Of a stretch of 64,000 nucleotides of DNA, positions 13,066 to 30,117 are shown piece by piece (the stretch's first letter is position 1; the number at the start of each line of letters is the position of its first letter). The DNA is from Moritella sp. (GTDB taxonomy: Bacteria > Pseudomonadota > Gammaproteobacteria > Enterobacterales > Moritellaceae). The notes below the pieces were generated by a model. The model was given only the letters and a program-made list of their open reading frames with translations, was not told the origin of the DNA and did no database searches. Location of the stretch: assembly GCF_013215705.1 (NCBI RefSeq), contig NZ_JABSQR010000005.1:124001-188000 (forward strand). The letters run 5' to 3'. The translations under genes and the position numbers were made by a program.

Positions 13066-14118
13066 GTGAGTGATTTATTAAGCCAAGACGAGATTGATGC
13101 GCTATTACATGGTGTTGATGATGTTGAAGAAGATGAATTTGACACCGTCGAAGACAGTGGCAGTATTGTTGATTTTGACTTTTCATCGCAAGACCGTATT
13201 GTGCGTGGTCGTATGCCAACGCTGGAGTTGGTTAATGAACGTTTCGCTCGTCACATGCGGATCAGTTTATTTAATATGATGCGCCGTACTGCGGAAGTAT
13301 CAATTAATGGCGTACAAATGCTTAAGTTTGGTGAATACGTGCATACGTTATTTGTACCGACTAGTTTGAATATGGTGCGTTTCCGCCCCTTAAAAGGCAC
13401 CGCGTTGGTGACTATGGAAGCACGTCTCGTCTTTATTTTAGTCGAAAACTTTTTTGGTGGTGATGGCCGTTATCATGCCAAGATTGAAGGGCGAGAATTT
13501 ACGCCTACAGAGCGCCGTATTATTCAAATGTTGTTAAAGATAGTCTTTGAAGATTATCACGAAGCATGGGCGCCTGTTATGGATGCAGAGTTTGAATATC
13601 TTGATTCGGAAGTAAACCCGGCGATGGCTAATATTGTTAGCCCGACTGAGGTCGTTGTTGTGAGTTCATTCCATATCGAGCTTGATGGTGGCGGAGGTGA
13701 TTTTCATATTACCATGCCATACTCGATGCTTGAGCCGATCCGTGAATTACTCGATGCGGGTGTGCAAAGTGACAAAGAAGATACCGATGAGCGCTGGAGT
13801 TCGGCGTTACAAGAAGAGATCTTAGATGTACCAGTAGAACTGAGTACTAAGTTACTTGAAACTGAGCTGACAATCGGGCAAATTATGGAATTAAAAGTAG
13901 GGGATATTATCCCGATTGATATGCCTGAAGAGCTCACCGTATTTATTGAAGATTTACCAAGTTATAAAGCCAAACTGGGTCGAAATAAAGATAATGTAGC
14001 GGTTAAGATTAGCAGAAAACTGAAAGTAAGTAATTTAACTAAATCTGATATTGACCATGTGGTATTACGTGGTGGATTAATGAATTTAGACGATAAAAAT
14101 GATGAAAATAAGGTATAG
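13066..14118 (+). CDS. fliM: FliM, C-ring switch protein
   Basis: 350-aa FliM, the switch component that binds phosphorylated CheY. The N-terminal LLSQDEIDALLHG (about 4-16) is the CheY-P-binding peptide. The middle domain (about 50-240) is CheC-like, and the C-terminal SpoA/FliN-like domain spans about 260-335. The start is GTG, 7 nt after the fliL stop, giving SDLLSQDEID as the second residue onward. FliG and FliN, its ring partners, are encoded in the same cluster. Confidence 0.97.
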   Translation: MSDLLSQDEIDALLHGVDDVEEDEFDTVEDSGSIVDFDFSSQDRIVRGRMPTLELVNERFARHMRISLFNMMRRTAEVSINGVQMLKFGEYVHTLFVPTSLNMVRFRPLKGTALVTMEARLVFILVENFFGGDGRYHAKIEGREFTPTERRIIQMLLKIVFEDYHEAWAPVMDAEFEYLDSEVNPAMANIVSPTEVVVVSSFHIELDGGGGDFHITMPYSMLEPIRELLDAGVQSDKEDTDERWSSALQEEILDVPVELSTKLLETELTIGQIMELKVGDIIPIDMPEELTVFIEDLPSYKAKLGRNKDNVAVKISRKLKVSNLTKSDIDHVVLRGGLMNLDDKNDENKV

Positions 14119-23215: not shown

Positions 23216-23316
23216 GTTTAATGGGTACTATATTATTTAGTGCCTGAGTATTGAAGTAATATATTTATGGGAATCAGGACCTGTAAATATTGTGATTACT
23301 TATTTTGGAGAACAAC

Positions 23317-23700
23317 TTGAAAAAGCAAATTAAAATTCTTATTGTCGATGATTTTTCTACGATGAGACGCATCATTAAAAACTTACTGCGTGACCTTGGT
23401 TTTAGTAATACATTTGAAGCCGACGATGGTAATACCGCGCTACCTATGCTTAAAAATGGCGATTATGATTTTGTGGTCACTGACTGGAACATGCCTGGAA
23501 TGCAAGGTATTGATCTACTTAAAGAAATAAGAAAAGATCAAGCGCTTTGTCATATCCCTGTATTGATGGTTACGGCAGAAGCGAAACGCGAACAAATCAT
23601 TGAAGCTGCGCAATCAGGTGTAAATGGTTATATTATAAAACCATTTACGGCAGCGACGTTAAAAGAAAAGTTAGAGAAAATTTTCGAACGAATTCAATAA
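23317..23700 (+). CDS. cheY: CheY, chemotaxis response regulator
   Basis: 127-aa single receiver domain that, when phosphorylated by CheA, binds FliM to change motor rotation. The phospho-acceptor D56 lies in VVTDWNMPG; acidic residues D11-D12 and the conserved K near 108 (YIIKPF) are present. The TTG at 23317 is preferred because GGAG lies 6 nt upstream at 23307-23310; an upstream in-frame TTG at 23305 would overlap that ribosome site. It is located 101 nt after fliA in the standard cheYZAB order. Confidence 0.95.
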
Positions 23701-23712
23701 GCAGGGATGGGC

Positions 23713-24462
23713 ATGAGTGAACAACAAGAAGCATTGATTTCATTAGAAAAAGCTAAAGAACTGGTGACACTGCTAGAGTGCGGCCAGGTAGAAATGGCAA
23801 ATGAAATCATTATTGATATTCAAAATGAAAGTTCAGCTGCAATGTTTGAAAAAGTAGGGGTGTTAACTCGTCAATTACATGATTCATTAGAAGATTTTCA
23901 ATTGGATACGCGTATTGAAAGTCTGGCTAATGATGAATTCCCGGATGCTAGAGAACGTTTAAACTACGTTATCGAAATGACGGATAAAGCCGCAAACCGA
24001 ACCATGGATGCAGTAGAAGCGTGCTTACCCATCGCGGATAGTTTTACTGATCGTATCCAACAAGTGATGCCAAATTGGAAGAACTTGATGAATCGTGATT
24101 TGCAACTCGGTCAATTTAAAGAACTTTGTAAATTATTAGATGATTTTCTTCAAGTTTCAGTTTCAGATGCCGATAGTTTAAGACAGTACTTAACTGAAAT
24201 TCTTATGGCACAAGATTTCCAAGATTTGACTGGTCAAATGATCCGTCGAGTGATTAATCTAGTGCAAGAAGTTGAAGTTAAATTAGTTGAAATGCTGACT
24301 ATGTTTGGTGAGGCGTCAAAGCCACTAAATAGCACAGCAGACGAAATTAAAAAAATCAGTGGCATTGAAGCGGAAGGTCCAATCATGAATGCGAAAGAAC
24401 GTGTTGATGTAGTAGACGGCCAAGATGATGTCGATGATTTATTATCAAGTTTAGGATTTTAA
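23713..24462 (+). CDS. cheZ: CheZ, CheY-P phosphatase
   Basis: 249-aa helical protein that dephosphorylates CheY-P. The active-site stretch FQDLTGQMIRRV contains the conserved catalytic glutamine (about 175, or the preceding Q in DFQD). The C-terminal VDDLLSSLGF is the CheY-binding tail. The ATG at 23713 fits AGGGA at 23703-23707; the ATG at 23707 is too close to that site but would add only two residues. It sits between cheY and cheA, as in vibrios and Shewanella. Confidence 0.94.
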   Translation: MSEQQEALISLEKAKELVTLLECGQVEMANEIIIDIQNESSAAMFEKVGVLTRQLHDSLEDFQLDTRIESLANDEFPDARERLNYVIEMTDKAANRTMDAVEACLPIADSFTDRIQQVMPNWKNLMNRDLQLGQFKELCKLLDDFLQVSVSDADSLRQYLTEILMAQDFQDLTGQMIRRVINLVQEVEVKLVEMLTMFGEASKPLNSTADEIKKISGIEAEGPIMNAKERVDVVDGQDDVDDLLSSLGF

Positions 24463-24473
24463 GGGAGATATTG

Positions 24474-26576
24474 ATGAGCTTTGATGTTGATGAAGAAATT
24501 CTACAGGACTTCCTGATTGAAGCGTCTGAGATTCTAGAGCTACTCTCTGAGCAACTCGTTGATTTAGAAAAAAGCCCAGAAGACTCAGAATTACTGAATG
24601 CAATCTTTAGGGGGTTTCATACAGTTAAAGGTGGCGCTGGCTTTTTAGCATTATCAGAACTAGTTGATATATGTCACGGTGCAGAAAACGTATTTGATAG
24701 CCTACGTAATGGGCATCGCGCGGTAACACCTGAATTGATGGATGTGATTCTTCAAGCATTGGATTGTGTCAATGTGATGTTTGTCGCGATTCAAGAGCGT
24801 GAACCATTAATTGCTGCAGATGCGGCATTAATCCATCAACTTCATTTGCTGACTCAACCTGCATCTGCACCAGTAGTGATAGAAAAGGTTGTAGCGGTGA
24901 CGCCTCAATCGGTAACTGTTGCTGGTAATGACTCAGGTATTGACGGAATGTCAGAGCTTGATTTTGAAAAATTACTTGATGAACTTCATGGTAAAGGTGG
25001 AACGCCGACAGCTGCTAACGTAGCCGTCCCGGCGCCGACACCTGCGGCAAGTTCAAATGCTGATTTTACGGATGATGAGTTCGAAAAATTACTTGATGAT
25101 CTGCATGGTGTTGGTCAGCATGCTAGCGCGACGAATACAACGTCAGCCGCTAGCAGTACTGAACTCAATGACGATGACTTTGAAAACTTACTGGATGAAT
25201 TATACGGTAAGGGTAATGCGCCAAGTGCTGCTGCGACGATCAAAAATGTGGTTAATGCTGGAGGTTCTGCTGCTATCCAGCCCGCGCCTGTTGCACAAGC
25301 TGCAACTGCGGTTGCTTCACCAGTTGCAAAAGTGGCACCAGTAGCCAAAAAATCGACTGAAACCGTGGCGGTAAAAGCAGAGAAAAAAGCGAAACCGCAA
25401 GTTGATTCAACAGTACGTGTTGATACTCGTACCCTTGATGAAATTATGAATATGGTGGGCGAATTAGTACTTGTTCGTAACCGTTTAGTGAGCTTAAGCG
25501 CCGCAAATAATGATGAAGACATGACTAAAGCTGTGTCCAATCTTGATGTGGTTACTGCCGATTTACAAGGCGCTGTCATGAAAACGCGGATGCAACCAAT
25601 CAAAAAAGTGTTTGGTCGTTTCCCACGTGTTGTACGTGATTTAGCACGTAGTTTATCAAAAGACATTAATCTTGAAATGATTGGTGAAGAAACCGATTTA
25701 GATAAGAATTTAGTCGAAGCACTTGCTGATCCTCTGGTGCATTTAGTGAGAAACTCGGTGGACCACGGCATTGAAATGCCAGACGAACGCGTGAAAAATG
25801 GTAAACCACGACAGGGGACGATTACCTTATCAGCATCTCAAGAAGGCGACCATATTCGTCTGAAAATTGTAGATGATGGTGCGGGTATGGACCCAGAACG
25901 CTTAAAGGATATTGCGATTAAACGTGGGGTGCTTGATGCTGATGCAGCAGCAAGAATCTCGGATAATGAAGCATACAACCTTATTTTTGCCCCCGGTTTT
26001 TCAACCAAAGATCAGATATCAGACATTTCTGGGCGTGGTGTTGGGATGGATGTGGTTAAGACGGGTATCAGCAAACTTAATGGTACAATTTCGATCGACT
26101 CCAAACTGGGGACGGGTACAACGATTGAAATTAAAGTACCGTTGACACTGGCGATTTTACCCACCTTGATGGTCGAAGTCGGTAAGCAAATATTTGCTTT
26201 ACCATTAACGAGTGTTAATGAGATCTTCCACTTGGACTTAAATAAAACCCATGTCGTCGATAACCAGCTCAGCATTGTAGTCAGAGACAAAGCTATTCCA
26301 CTATTTTATCTGCATGATTGGTTAACTAAAATGGATCCACAAGCAGCGACACGAAATGATCGTGGTCTTGGCCATGTTGTGATCGTCCAGTTAGGGATTA
26401 AACAAGTTGGTTTTGTGGTTGATAGTCTGATTGGTCAAGAAGAAGTTGTTATTAAAGCGTTAGACAACTTACTACAAGGTACGCCTGGCATGGCCGGCGC
26501 AACTATTACCAGCGATGGTGGTATTGCTTTGATTTTAGATATTCCAAGTCTCTTAAATCATTACGCCAAACGCTAA
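24474..26576 (+). CDS. cheA: CheA, chemotaxis histidine kinase
   Basis: 700-aa CheA. The Hpt (P1) domain includes the phospho-acceptor H49 in GFHTVKGGAGF. The linker (about 130-300) is Ala/Pro-rich and carries three copies of a DxFExLLDxLHG-type motif instead of an obvious CheY/CheB-binding P2 domain. Dimerisation (P3, about 310-375), HATPase (P4; LVRNSVDHGIE, DDGAGMD, GRGVGMDVV) and CheW-like P5 domains follow. The start is ATG with GGGAG upstream; a TTG codon just before it is not needed. It phosphorylates CheY and CheB in a receptor array with CheW. Confidence 0.96.
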   Translation: MSFDVDEEILQDFLIEASEILELLSEQLVDLEKSPEDSELLNAIFRGFHTVKGGAGFLALSELVDICHGAENVFDSLRNGHRAVTPELMDVILQALDCVNVMFVAIQEREPLIAADAALIHQLHLLTQPASAPVVIEKVVAVTPQSVTVAGNDSGIDGMSELDFEKLLDELHGKGGTPTAANVAVPAPTPAASSNADFTDDEFEKLLDDLHGVGQHASATNTTSAASSTELNDDDFENLLDELYGKGNAPSAAATIKNVVNAGGSAAIQPAPVAQAATAVASPVAKVAPVAKKSTETVAVKAEKKAKPQVDSTVRVDTRTLDEIMNMVGELVLVRNRLVSLSAANNDEDMTKAVSNLDVVTADLQGAVMKTRMQPIKKVFGRFPRVVRDLARSLSKDINLEMIGEETDLDKNLVEALADPLVHLVRNSVDHGIEMPDERVKNGKPRQGTITLSASQEGDHIRLKIVDDGAGMDPERLKDIAIKRGVLDADAAARISDNEAYNLIFAPGFSTKDQISDISGRGVGMDVVKTGISKLNGTISIDSKLGTGTTIEIKVPLTLAILPTLMVEVGKQIFALPLTSVNEIFHLDLNKTHVVDNQLSIVVRDKAIPLFYLHDWLTKMDPQAATRNDRGLGHVVIVQLGIKQVGFVVDSLIGQEEVVIKALDNLLQGTPGMAGATITSDGGIALILDIPSLLNHYAKR

Positions 26577-26647: not shown

Positions 26648-27850
26648 ATGAAAATAAAGGTTTTAGTCGTTGATGACTCTAGTTTTTTCAGACGTAGAGT
26701 AAGTGAAATCATTAATGCAGATCCAGAAATGGAAGTTATTGATACTGCTAAGAATGGCGAAGAAGCGATCATTAAAGCGAAATCGCTACGTCCAGATGTG
26801 ATCACCATGGATATTGAAATGCCAGTACTCGACGGTATTTCTGCAGTTAAAGCGATCATGAAAGACACGCCGACCCCCATTTTAATGTTCTCGTCACTGA
26901 CGCACCAAGGTGCGAAGTCGACACTCGAGGCTTTAGAGGCCGGTGCGGCTAACTTTTTACCGAAAAAGTTTGAAGATATTGCCAAAGACAAAGCGGAAGC
27001 GGTTAAATTACTGCAGCAAAATATTAAAGAAATCAGTAAACGCAGAAGTGGATTGAGAGCTCCGCGTATCACTTCCATCCCAGTTCGTAGTGCGCCGATA
27101 GCGCCTGATAGAGGTCTTAATAGCGCCACGTTACTGCGTAAAAATACAGCGACAAGCCGATTGCAGACGGCGAATGCTGTAAACGTGAGACATGTTGCTG
27201 ATGTTGATAGCGCGACACTTGAAACGCGAACGCCGGCAACTGTCAGCCATGTAAGAAAACGTGCATCAGGTAAAAAATATAATTTAATGGTAATTGGTGC
27301 GTCTACCGGTGGTCCAGTCGCATTACAAAACGTATTAACACCTTTACGTAATGACTTCCCTTTACCTATTTTACTCATTCAACATATGCCCGCTACGTTT
27401 ACTTCGGCATTTGCAGCGCGATTGAATACCTTATGCCAAATCACGGTAAAGGAAGCGCAGCATGGTGATCGTTTACGGCCTGGAGTTGCTTATTTAGCGC
27501 CTGGTGGTAAGCAAGTTCTGATTGAGAGTAAAGCCGGTGGTTTAAGTTTAAAAGTCATTGAAAGCCCAGAAGGGATTAATTATAAACCGAGTGTCGATAT
27601 TACATTTGGCTCTGCTGCGCAGGCATATCGCGATAAAGTATTAGCGATTGTATTAACGGGTATGGGTGCTGATGGCCGAGAAGGCGCTAAATTACTCAAA
27701 CAAAAAGGCAGTACTGTGTGGGCTCAAGATGCACAATCTTGCGTTGTATATGGTATGCCACAAGCAATTGTGAATGCTGGATTAGCCGATGAACAAATTA
27801 ATCTGCCACAAATCGCAGAGCGCATTAATATTGAAGTTGGTTGTCGGTAA
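26648..27850 (+). CDS. cheB: CheB, receptor methylesterase response regulator
   Basis: 400-aa CheB with an N-terminal receiver (about 1-120; phospho-acceptor D55 in TMDIEMPVLDG), a long basic linker (about 135-210), and a C-terminal methylesterase domain. The catalytic serine is in IGASTGGPVAL (about S219), with the histidine in IQHMP and the aspartate in LTGMGADG. It removes methyl groups from chemoreceptors during adaptation. CheR is not in the window. Confidence 0.96.
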   Translation: MKIKVLVVDDSSFFRRRVSEIINADPEMEVIDTAKNGEEAIIKAKSLRPDVITMDIEMPVLDGISAVKAIMKDTPTPILMFSSLTHQGAKSTLEALEAGAANFLPKKFEDIAKDKAEAVKLLQQNIKEISKRRSGLRAPRITSIPVRSAPIAPDRGLNSATLLRKNTATSRLQTANAVNVRHVADVDSATLETRTPATVSHVRKRASGKKYNLMVIGASTGGPVALQNVLTPLRNDFPLPILLIQHMPATFTSAFAARLNTLCQITVKEAQHGDRLRPGVAYLAPGGKQVLIESKAGGLSLKVIESPEGINYKPSVDITFGSAAQAYRDKVLAIVLTGMGADGREGAKLLKQKGSTVWAQDAQSCVVYGMPQAIVNAGLADEQINLPQIAERINIEVGCR

Positions 27851-27876: not shown

Positions 27877-28668
27877 TTGAACGTTTGGACTGTTGCTAAT
27901 CAAAAAGGCGGGGTTGGAAAAACAACCACTGCAATTACTCTGGCAGGTTTACTTTCAGAGCAAGGACAGCGCGTATTATTAATCGATACTGACCCTCACG
28001 CATCATTAACGAGTTATCTCAATTATGATTGTGATGATTTAACGGTTGGATTGTTTGATCTTTTTGTCGCGCCTATGCTTGATGCTGAATTGGTTCATAA
28101 TGCGACGATTGAAACACCTTATAACGGTATTAACTTATTACCTGCGACGATGGCACTGGCTACTTTAGATAGAACACTCGGTCACCGTGATGGTATGGGA
28201 CTTATTCTCAAAAATATTATCACTTTAGTGTCGGATGATTATGACTTTGTTATTATCGATTGTCCTCCTGTACTTGGGGTGATGATGGTGAATGCGCTGG
28301 CAAGCAGTGACCGAATTTTAGTGCCTGTGCAAACCGAGTTTTTAGCATTGAAAGGTTTAGACCGTATGGTTAAAACCTTTGAAATTATGCAACGCAGTTG
28401 TACAAATAAATTTAATTATACAGTGATCCCAACTATGTTTGACCGCCGAACTAAAGCTTCGATTGTGTCATTACAGACATTGCAACAAAACTATAGCCAG
28501 AATGTATGGCGTGCAGTTATCCCTGTAGATACACAATTTCGCAATGCCAGTTTAAAGCATATGCCACCTTCTATGTATTCTCGTAGTAGCCGTGGTGTTG
28601 CTGCCTATGGGGCATTATTACAAGACTTGTTGGCAGGCATTAAGCAGCAGGACCGTATGTATGGATAA
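27877..28668 (+). CDS. parC: ParC-type ParA ATPase for polar chemotaxis array placement
   Basis: 263-aa ParA/Soj-family ATPase with Walker A KGGVGKTTT near residues 10-18 and Walker B in FVIIDCPP. The start is TTG, preceded by a weak GGTAGGG-type site; no ATG fits the conserved N-terminus. Lying between cheB and a CheW-domain protein, it matches ParC of Vibrio, which directs chemotaxis arrays to the cell pole and their inheritance. It is not a chromosome-partitioning ParA: there is no parB or parS. The ParC call is by synteny plus family. Confidence 0.88.
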   Translation: MNVWTVANQKGGVGKTTTAITLAGLLSEQGQRVLLIDTDPHASLTSYLNYDCDDLTVGLFDLFVAPMLDAELVHNATIETPYNGINLLPATMALATLDRTLGHRDGMGLILKNIITLVSDDYDFVIIDCPPVLGVMMVNALASSDRILVPVQTEFLALKGLDRMVKTFEIMQRSCTNKFNYTVIPTMFDRRTKASIVSLQTLQQNYSQNVWRAVIPVDTQFRNASLKHMPPSMYSRSSRGVAAYGALLQDLLAGIKQQDRMYG

Positions 28669-29611
28669 GCATAGCAAACACACAGCTTTAGATGATTATT
28701 TTGCATCTATGTTATCTGTTCCAGTTGTTGAAGACGTGAAACCGTCTGAGTTAACAATGGCGCTTACAGATTTTCCTCAGGCTGAATTAAAACCGTTATT
28801 GTCAGTTGTTTCGCCGCAAGGACCGAGTGATTTTAAGATGCCTGAGCCAGATAGCTCGGGTTCGTTAACCGAGCTTGACCTGTTATTGGGTTCTGTGATT
28901 GACATTGACCTTGCAGACATGGACTTGTCTGTTTTAGATAATGCTCAGTCAGCATATTTACCAGCAGAACCCGTTATTGATACTATGGTTGGTACTATCT
29001 CTGCAGCAGAGCAAGAGATACAACGCGTTGTAGCGGATGTGACTGTTGCTGAAATGTCAGAAAGTACTGTGTTGCCAGAGGCTGAGCTATCGCCATCATC
29101 GATACCAGAAGCAGACACAGAAACCGAATTAGAAAGCAACGTTGAAGCGGCCCCTACGTGGAAGAATGTTGAATTAGAAGAACGCTTTCAAGCGCTGTTT
29201 TTTGAGGTCGCAGGTGTTACCTTTGCGGTGCCTCTGACAGAGCTTGGTGGTATTCATCAAGCTGAAGTAGTCAACAGTTTATTTGGTAAACCGGATTGGT
29301 ATTTAGGTATCATGCAACACCGTGAACAAAAATTAAGTGTTGTTGATACTGCACAATGGGTTATGCCTGAGCAGAATATGGGTGAGATAGATTATAAATA
29401 TCAGATCCAACTAAGTGAGTCGAATTGGGTACTAGGCTGTGAAAGTCTGCATGGTACTGAAACTTTAAACAGTAATGATATTAAATGGCGAAGTACACCT
29501 GGCAGTCGACCTTGGTTAGCTGGCATGGTTAAATCACGCATGTGCGTATTATTACACGTAACCGAAATGATTAAATTGCTGGATAATGGCATCAATATTC
29601 ATGGGCAATAG
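28661..29611 (+). CDS. parP: ParP-type CheW-domain protein
   Basis: 316-aa protein with a long acidic, variable N-terminal region (about 1-170) and a C-terminal CheW-like domain (about 178-310; FEVAGVTFAVPLTELGGIH, GIMQHREQKLSVVD). This matches Vibrio ParP, whose N-terminal part contacts ParC and whose C-terminal part integrates into chemoreceptor/CheA arrays. The ATG at 28661 overlaps the parC stop by 8 nt; in-frame codons further upstream lie deep in parC and are less likely. It is followed by cheW after 17 nt. Confidence 0.86.
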   Translation: MDKHSKHTALDDYFASMLSVPVVEDVKPSELTMALTDFPQAELKPLLSVVSPQGPSDFKMPEPDSSGSLTELDLLLGSVIDIDLADMDLSVLDNAQSAYLPAEPVIDTMVGTISAAEQEIQRVVADVTVAEMSESTVLPEAELSPSSIPEADTETELESNVEAAPTWKNVELEERFQALFFEVAGVTFAVPLTELGGIHQAEVVNSLFGKPDWYLGIMQHREQKLSVVDTAQWVMPEQNMGEIDYKYQIQLSESNWVLGCESLHGTETLNSNDIKWRSTPGSRPWLAGMVKSRMCVLLHVTEMIKLLDNGINIHGQ

Positions 29612-29628: not shown

Positions 29629-30117
29629 ATGAGTCAGTCTCGAAATCTAGTTGAAAACGTAGCTGAAGATGAAGTGCTACAATGGGTTACATTCAAGTTA
29701 GAGAATGAAATCTACGGTATTAATGTAATGCAAGTACAAGAAGTATTACGTTATACAGAAATTGCTCCAGTGCCGGGTGCACCAAACTACGTAATTGGTA
29801 TCATCAACTTACGTGGTAATGTCGTGACTGTGATCGATACCCGTGTTCGTTTTGGTTTGATGCCATCAGAAGTGAGCGAAAATTCACGTATCGTTATCAT
29901 CGAAGCCGAAAAACAAGTGATTGGTATTCTTGTTGATGGTGTTGCTGAAGTCGTCTACCTACGTTCTTCAGAAATTGACATGGCTCCGAGTGTAGGAACC
30001 GATGAAAGCGCTCAATTTATCCAAGGTGTATCAAACCGTGACGGCGAATTACTTATTCTTGTTGATTTGAATAAGTTTTTAAGTGATGACGAATGGGATG
30101 AATTAAGCGGTTTATAA
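29629..30117 (+). CDS. cheW: CheW, chemotaxis coupling protein
   Basis: 162-aa CheW that links chemoreceptors to CheA. The CheW fold is clear: VTFKLENEIYGINVMQVQEVLRY-type start, APNYVIGIINLRGNVVTVID (about 50-70), and the RIVIIEAEKQVIGILVDGV stretch. A strong terminator (30140-30173) ends the che operon just downstream. AGAAGGAAA precedes the ATG. Confidence 0.97.
   Translation: MSQSRNLVENVAEDEVLQWVTFKLENEIYGINVMQVQEVLRYTEIAPVPGAPNYVIGIINLRGNVVTVIDTRVRFGLMPSEVSENSRIVIIEAEKQVIGILVDGVAEVVYLRSSEIDMAPSVGTDESAQFIQGVSNRDGELLILVDLNKFLSDDEWDELSGL

Follow-up and report, generated by a model that had tools for sequence, protein, structure and literature searches.

Introduction

In the CheA kinases of E. 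coli and Thermotoga, the region between the Hpt domain and P3 is occupied by a folded P2 domain. The same P2 site is used by CheY and, in E. coli, by CheB. At the other end of the signalling pathway, CheY offers its alpha4-beta5-alpha5 face to the N-terminus of FliM and to the C-terminal tail of CheZ (E. coli structures 1F4V and 1KMI). The binding face has also been treated for V. cholerae CheY3 (PMC3774744). A P2 domain is lacking from more than half of CheA proteins (PMC10782961). In Vibrio, ParP is bound by a segment of CheA before P3, the LID, which has been described as restricted to CheA with an associated ParC and ParP (PMC5706961, PMC7534058); its position has been given as between P2 and P3 (PMC7534058). 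Both P2-less CheA and the LID are known. On a FliM-like repeat array within CheA, or on the letters of its motif, no paper was found in the open-access literature.

The CheA linker of the Moritella locus and its motifs

The locus lies in a stretch of 64,000 nucleotides from a Moritella genome (the window). The gene order of its main chemotaxis cluster is flhF, flhG, fliA, cheY, cheZ, cheA, cheB, parC, parP, cheW, and the genes that matter here are as follows.

23305 to 23700, + strand: cheY, the proposed docking partner
23707 to 24462, + strand: cheZ
24474 to 26576, + strand: cheA, 700 aa from ATG, with Hpt (P1), linker, P3, P4 kinase and P5 CheW-like domains
26648 to 27850, + strand: cheB, with a receiver domain, the second possible partner
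27877 to 28668, + strand: parC, coding for a ParA-like ATPase
28661 to 29611, + strand: parP, with a C-terminal CheW-like AIF domain, the rival partner by way of the LID of CheA

Domains of CheA were placed by Pfam (Hpt, aa 8-97; H-kinase_dim, aa 312-371), which also matched the ATPase and CheW-like domains. The protein is 96% identical to the CheA of Moritella sp. PE36. Its Hpt domain and P3 are separated by a disordered linker of 200 aa, which contains three copies of a 17-residue motif, spaced by 39 and 33 aa.

24948 to 24998, + strand: motif copy 1, MSELDFEKLLDELHGKG, CheA aa 159-175
25065 to 25115, + strand: motif copy 2, FTDDEFEKLLDDLHGVG, CheA aa 198-214
25164 to 25214, + strand: motif copy 3, LNDDDFENLLDELYGKG, CheA aa 231-247

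The first-pass annotation had placed three copies between the Hpt and dimerisation domains, which holds, with coordinates right to a few bases. Scored against a profile of all CheA motifs, whose training sequences included the window copies themselves, these copies reached 40.5-44.6 bits, against 12.0 bits for the next best 17-mer among 170,336 genome positions. In a profile search of the whole genome, the three CheA copies were the sole matches (E 7e-8 to 1e-6). The repeats are accordingly real, with scores far above chance.

Absence of a P2 domain

The linker had been described as having no obvious P2 domain, and three kinds of evidence agree with this description. No match to P2 was returned by Pfam between Hpt and H-kinase_dim of the window CheA. 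By itself this negative is weak, because Pfam overlooks the P2 of the second CheA of the Moritella genome (L001, 478-2535, - strand), for which no P2 was reported even at E 10. This second CheA carries a P2-like region (DWLIHFVPGQDILKQGNEPRLIF...) that matches the P2-like regions of other CheA proteins. When three P2 probes were compared with 166 homologues of the motif-bearing CheA class, none matched (0/166); the probes did match 8/15 other CheA, including the second CheA of the Moritella genome, and the motif was present in none of those eight. In two AlphaFold models, a P2 fold was absent from the linker, which was disordered (pLDDT below 50) and formed one helix per motif (about 70-77).

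The linker shares with the P2 domain of E. coli and Thermotoga its position, from Hpt to P3, and presumably its job, but consists of disorder with three helical islands where the latter is a folded domain. The earlier view of the repeats as multiple short linear motifs in the place of P2 is supported by these computations.

Survey of the CheA class

CheA neighbourhoods were surveyed in 80 + 100 genome stretches from Gammaproteobacteria. The set of 80 consisted of closely related loci, and class-wide loci were represented by one or two per family. Motifs of three loci (L103, L128 and L167) fell outside the first regular expression and were recognised by reading the linkers. Copy number in related CheA proteins, for which the first-pass annotation had called for a survey, ranged from one to eight; the motif was present in all complete homologues of the class (161/161), usually in three copies (119 proteins), with a median spacing of 41.5 residues. 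Its consensus in the surveyed class is ITDDEFExLLDxLHGxG, in which F and D are nearly invariant and LL almost so. The highest count was observed in the CheA of L139 (G033), which has eight copies on a linker of about 560 residues, most of them ending in DELQG rather than DELHG. A low motif count was considered as a mark of ParP loss and was not borne out in the survey.

Outside the class, the motif was detected in 1/14 other CheA. This distant protein, the CheA of L169 (G151), is 36% identical to that of the window, gave no match to P2 and has one copy (ITDEEFERYLDELYGG); the element therefore reaches past the surveyed class. A search of 114 whole genomes with the motif profile (E < 1e-3) gave matches only in CheA-sized or split-CheA frames, the CheA frames being assigned by size and place, with a domain check that did not extend to every one.

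The linker of L128 (G192), from a genome in which ParC and ParP were undetectable, carries three near-identical copies of LPEGVDPDGEITDDEFEALLNQRD, in which the FliM-like half is present and the LHG half is gone. This arrangement suggests that the motif is composed of two separable halves.

Resemblance to FliM and CheZ peptides

Two peptides encoded in the window resemble the motif.

13078 to 13116, + strand: N-terminal CheY-binding segment of FliM, LSQDEIDALLHGV, within fliM (13066-14118), the closest look-alike of the motif
24424 to 24459, + strand: C-terminal CheY-binding tail of CheZ, DDVDDLLSSLGF, a weaker look-alike

The FliM peptide (LSQDEIDALL) has in common with the CheA motif an acidic short helix, the core [LI][ST]x[DE]E[FI][DE]xLL and a host protein that needs CheY. 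It differs in being a single N-terminal copy, whereas the CheA motifs form an internal tandem array, and the CheA motif has Phe for Ile and an additional DxLHGxG end. The tail of CheZ, whose likeness to the CheA motif was noted in the first-pass annotation and is as it was described there, is likewise an acidic helix, in which a G comes after LLxxL, and is a ligand of CheY, but it is C-terminal, present in a single copy and a weaker match to the profile. The motif fits the peptide type of both, a short acidic amphipathic helix with a hydrophobic-acidic-x-L-L core.

The strength of this resemblance depended on the profile. With a sharp CheA-motif profile and 32,689 window positions, the N-terminus of FliM (LSQDEIDALLHGVDDVE) was the top non-CheA match and the CheZ tail the fifth. 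With a smoothed profile and 172,744 positions, FliM was third among non-CheA matches when the first ten or eleven columns were used; its overall rank varied from 6 to 61 with the columns used and was 10-61 once the LHG end was included or N-terminal columns were dropped. The CheZ tail ranked 42nd at best. Alignment of the CheA motif with the FliM N-termini of 19 genomes by hhalign covered 13 columns without gaps (probability 58%, P 1e-4). The median motif score of 157 CheZ tails exceeded 99.7% of control ORF tails, these tails being near-identical to each other and hence not independent. When the whole genome was searched with the motif to a limit of E 10, FliM was not among the matches, a 17-column local profile probably being too short to reach it. 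For the earlier proposal that the repeats are CheY-docking peptides, the likeness to CheY-binding peptides stands, and is closer for FliM than for the CheZ tail that had been cited; the docking itself is a prediction from sequence.

Occurrence of the motif without ParC, ParP or CheZ

The strongest competing explanation is that the repeats are the LID, so that they would dock the AIF domain of ParP, alone or in addition to CheY, and tie CheA to polar arrays via ParP and ParC. The published ParP-binding segment has been assigned to the linker of the same CheA class (PMC5706961, PMC7534058), and the CheA linkers of ParP-bearing loci conserve nothing but the motifs. A LID in this linker would therefore have to include motif copies or be unconserved. 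It may well include them, and dual use is possible. The mean number of copies is also somewhat higher with ParP and ParC nearby (3.0) than without them (2.6).

However, whereas the LID of Vibrio, which lies in the same linker of the same protein class, is said to be limited to genomes with ParC and ParP, the motif array is not. In two species of one genus (G022 and G170, 100 and 98% complete), CheA has one full motif each (SDAEFEALLDRLHGKG), and searches of both genomes for CheZ and ParP returned none, and only distant ParA proteins. The cluster of G022 reads flhG, fliA, cheY, cheA, cheB, mot, mot, cheW, with no cheZ, parC or parP. At both loci (L159 of G022 and L164 of G170), these three genes are missing together from a flagellar chemotaxis cluster. 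ParC and ParP were also undetectable in four other genera (G001, G010, G154 and G192), in which 2-4 motif copies are kept. In total, 1-4 copies occur in six surveyed genomes from five genera without the two proteins; ParP is divergent and could escape detection in single genomes, but the absence of ParC and the cluster structure agree with its loss. Since the motif is kept without ParP, ParC and CheZ, none of them can be the universal reason for it. The AIF domain, moreover, is an SH3-like relative of CheW and is not known to favour FliM-like peptides. Docking of ParP is regarded as a rather unlikely function of the repeats, yet as a serious rival to CheY docking; should the array bind ParP after all, it would supply the sequence code of the LID. 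The partners that remain after this elimination are CheY, CheB, CheW, receptors and CheA itself.

Putative docking of CheY and CheB

The resemblance to FliM, the mutual exclusion with P2 and the elimination of other partners together make CheY (and CheB) the best candidate. We consider it reasonably probable that the repeats take the place of P2 by docking proteins with a receiver domain, primarily CheY and probably also CheB. Each copy would form a short amphipathic helix and sit in the alpha4-beta5-alpha5 groove of CheY, as the N-terminus of FliM and the tail of CheZ do. With several such copies on a flexible Ala/Pro tether beside the phospho-donor Hpt, the local concentration of CheY could rise and phosphotransfer speed up. 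Phospho-CheY, once released, would find a peptide of this kind again at the motor, on FliM. All three elements of this model, namely binding to CheY or CheB, seating in that groove and faster phosphotransfer, are inferred.

The face in question (I95, A99, Y106 and K119, E. coli numbering) is 100% conserved among the CheY proteins of the survey, an invariance that FliM binding would already require by itself. Several points count against docking of CheY: the likeness to FliM spans about 10 residues, acidic amphipathic helices being common; the conserved LHGxG tail is unaccounted for by FliM; and in published work the linker has a role in binding ParP (PMC5706961). For the AlphaFold fusions, operon read-through was imitated by placing CheY and CheA in one frame, with stops read as Gly. 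In neither read-through model was any one motif more ordered than the others near CheY, and neither the motifs nor the tail of CheZ, which is known to bind CheY, gave a docking signal (block pLDDT of the tail about 58-62). As this known binder remained unordered in the fusions, the models count only for helicity and for the absence of P2.

If CheY docking is true, it would explain how CheY is recruited in a major P2-less class (Vibrio, Shewanella, Pseudoalteromonas, Aeromonas and others), it would make kinase, phosphatase and motor compete for one face of CheY, and it would offer a simple mutational handle on phosphotransfer. The chances appear evenly balanced for the broader proposal that P2 was swapped for a tandem array of FliM mimics across this gammaproteobacterial CheA class, with kinase, phosphatase and motor sharing one CheY peptide code and the number of docking sites in the kinase free to evolve (1 to 8).

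Possible SH3-like partners

The repeats might instead bind an SH3-like partner that every one of these systems has (CheW or P5 of CheA) or act within CheA, and so tune array packing and not the supply of CheY. P5 is present wherever the motif occurs, CheW is encoded in the same clusters, and the AIF domain of ParP, a binder of the same CheA, is a relative of CheW and P5 (PMC5706961). As this explanation accounts neither for the resemblance to FliM and CheZ nor for the exclusion with P2, it is given a low probability. CheW of the window (29629-30117, + strand) has a C-terminal end, FLSDDEWDELSGL (30076-30114), that falls in the upper tail of motif-profile scores; an ending of this type is missing from the CheW of L159.

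Divergence of the motifs and of the remaining linker

Outside the motifs, the linker is rich in Ala (21%), Pro (13%) and Ser (10%), with conserved columns only at its ends, and longer linkers tend to carry more copies (Spearman 0.58). These properties would suit mere spacers or solubility aids in a low-complexity linker, a very improbable reading that the conservation of the motifs largely refutes: F is nearly invariant and LL almost so, and each copy is under purifying selection like the kinase core. Nonsynonymous differences per site, compared in ten pairs of species, spanned 0.00-0.08 both in the motifs and in the kinase core, against 0.05-0.36 in the other linker parts, while synonymous change was similar across all three. 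The motifs diverge as slowly as the kinase core, which marks them as functional parts of CheA and not as spacer.
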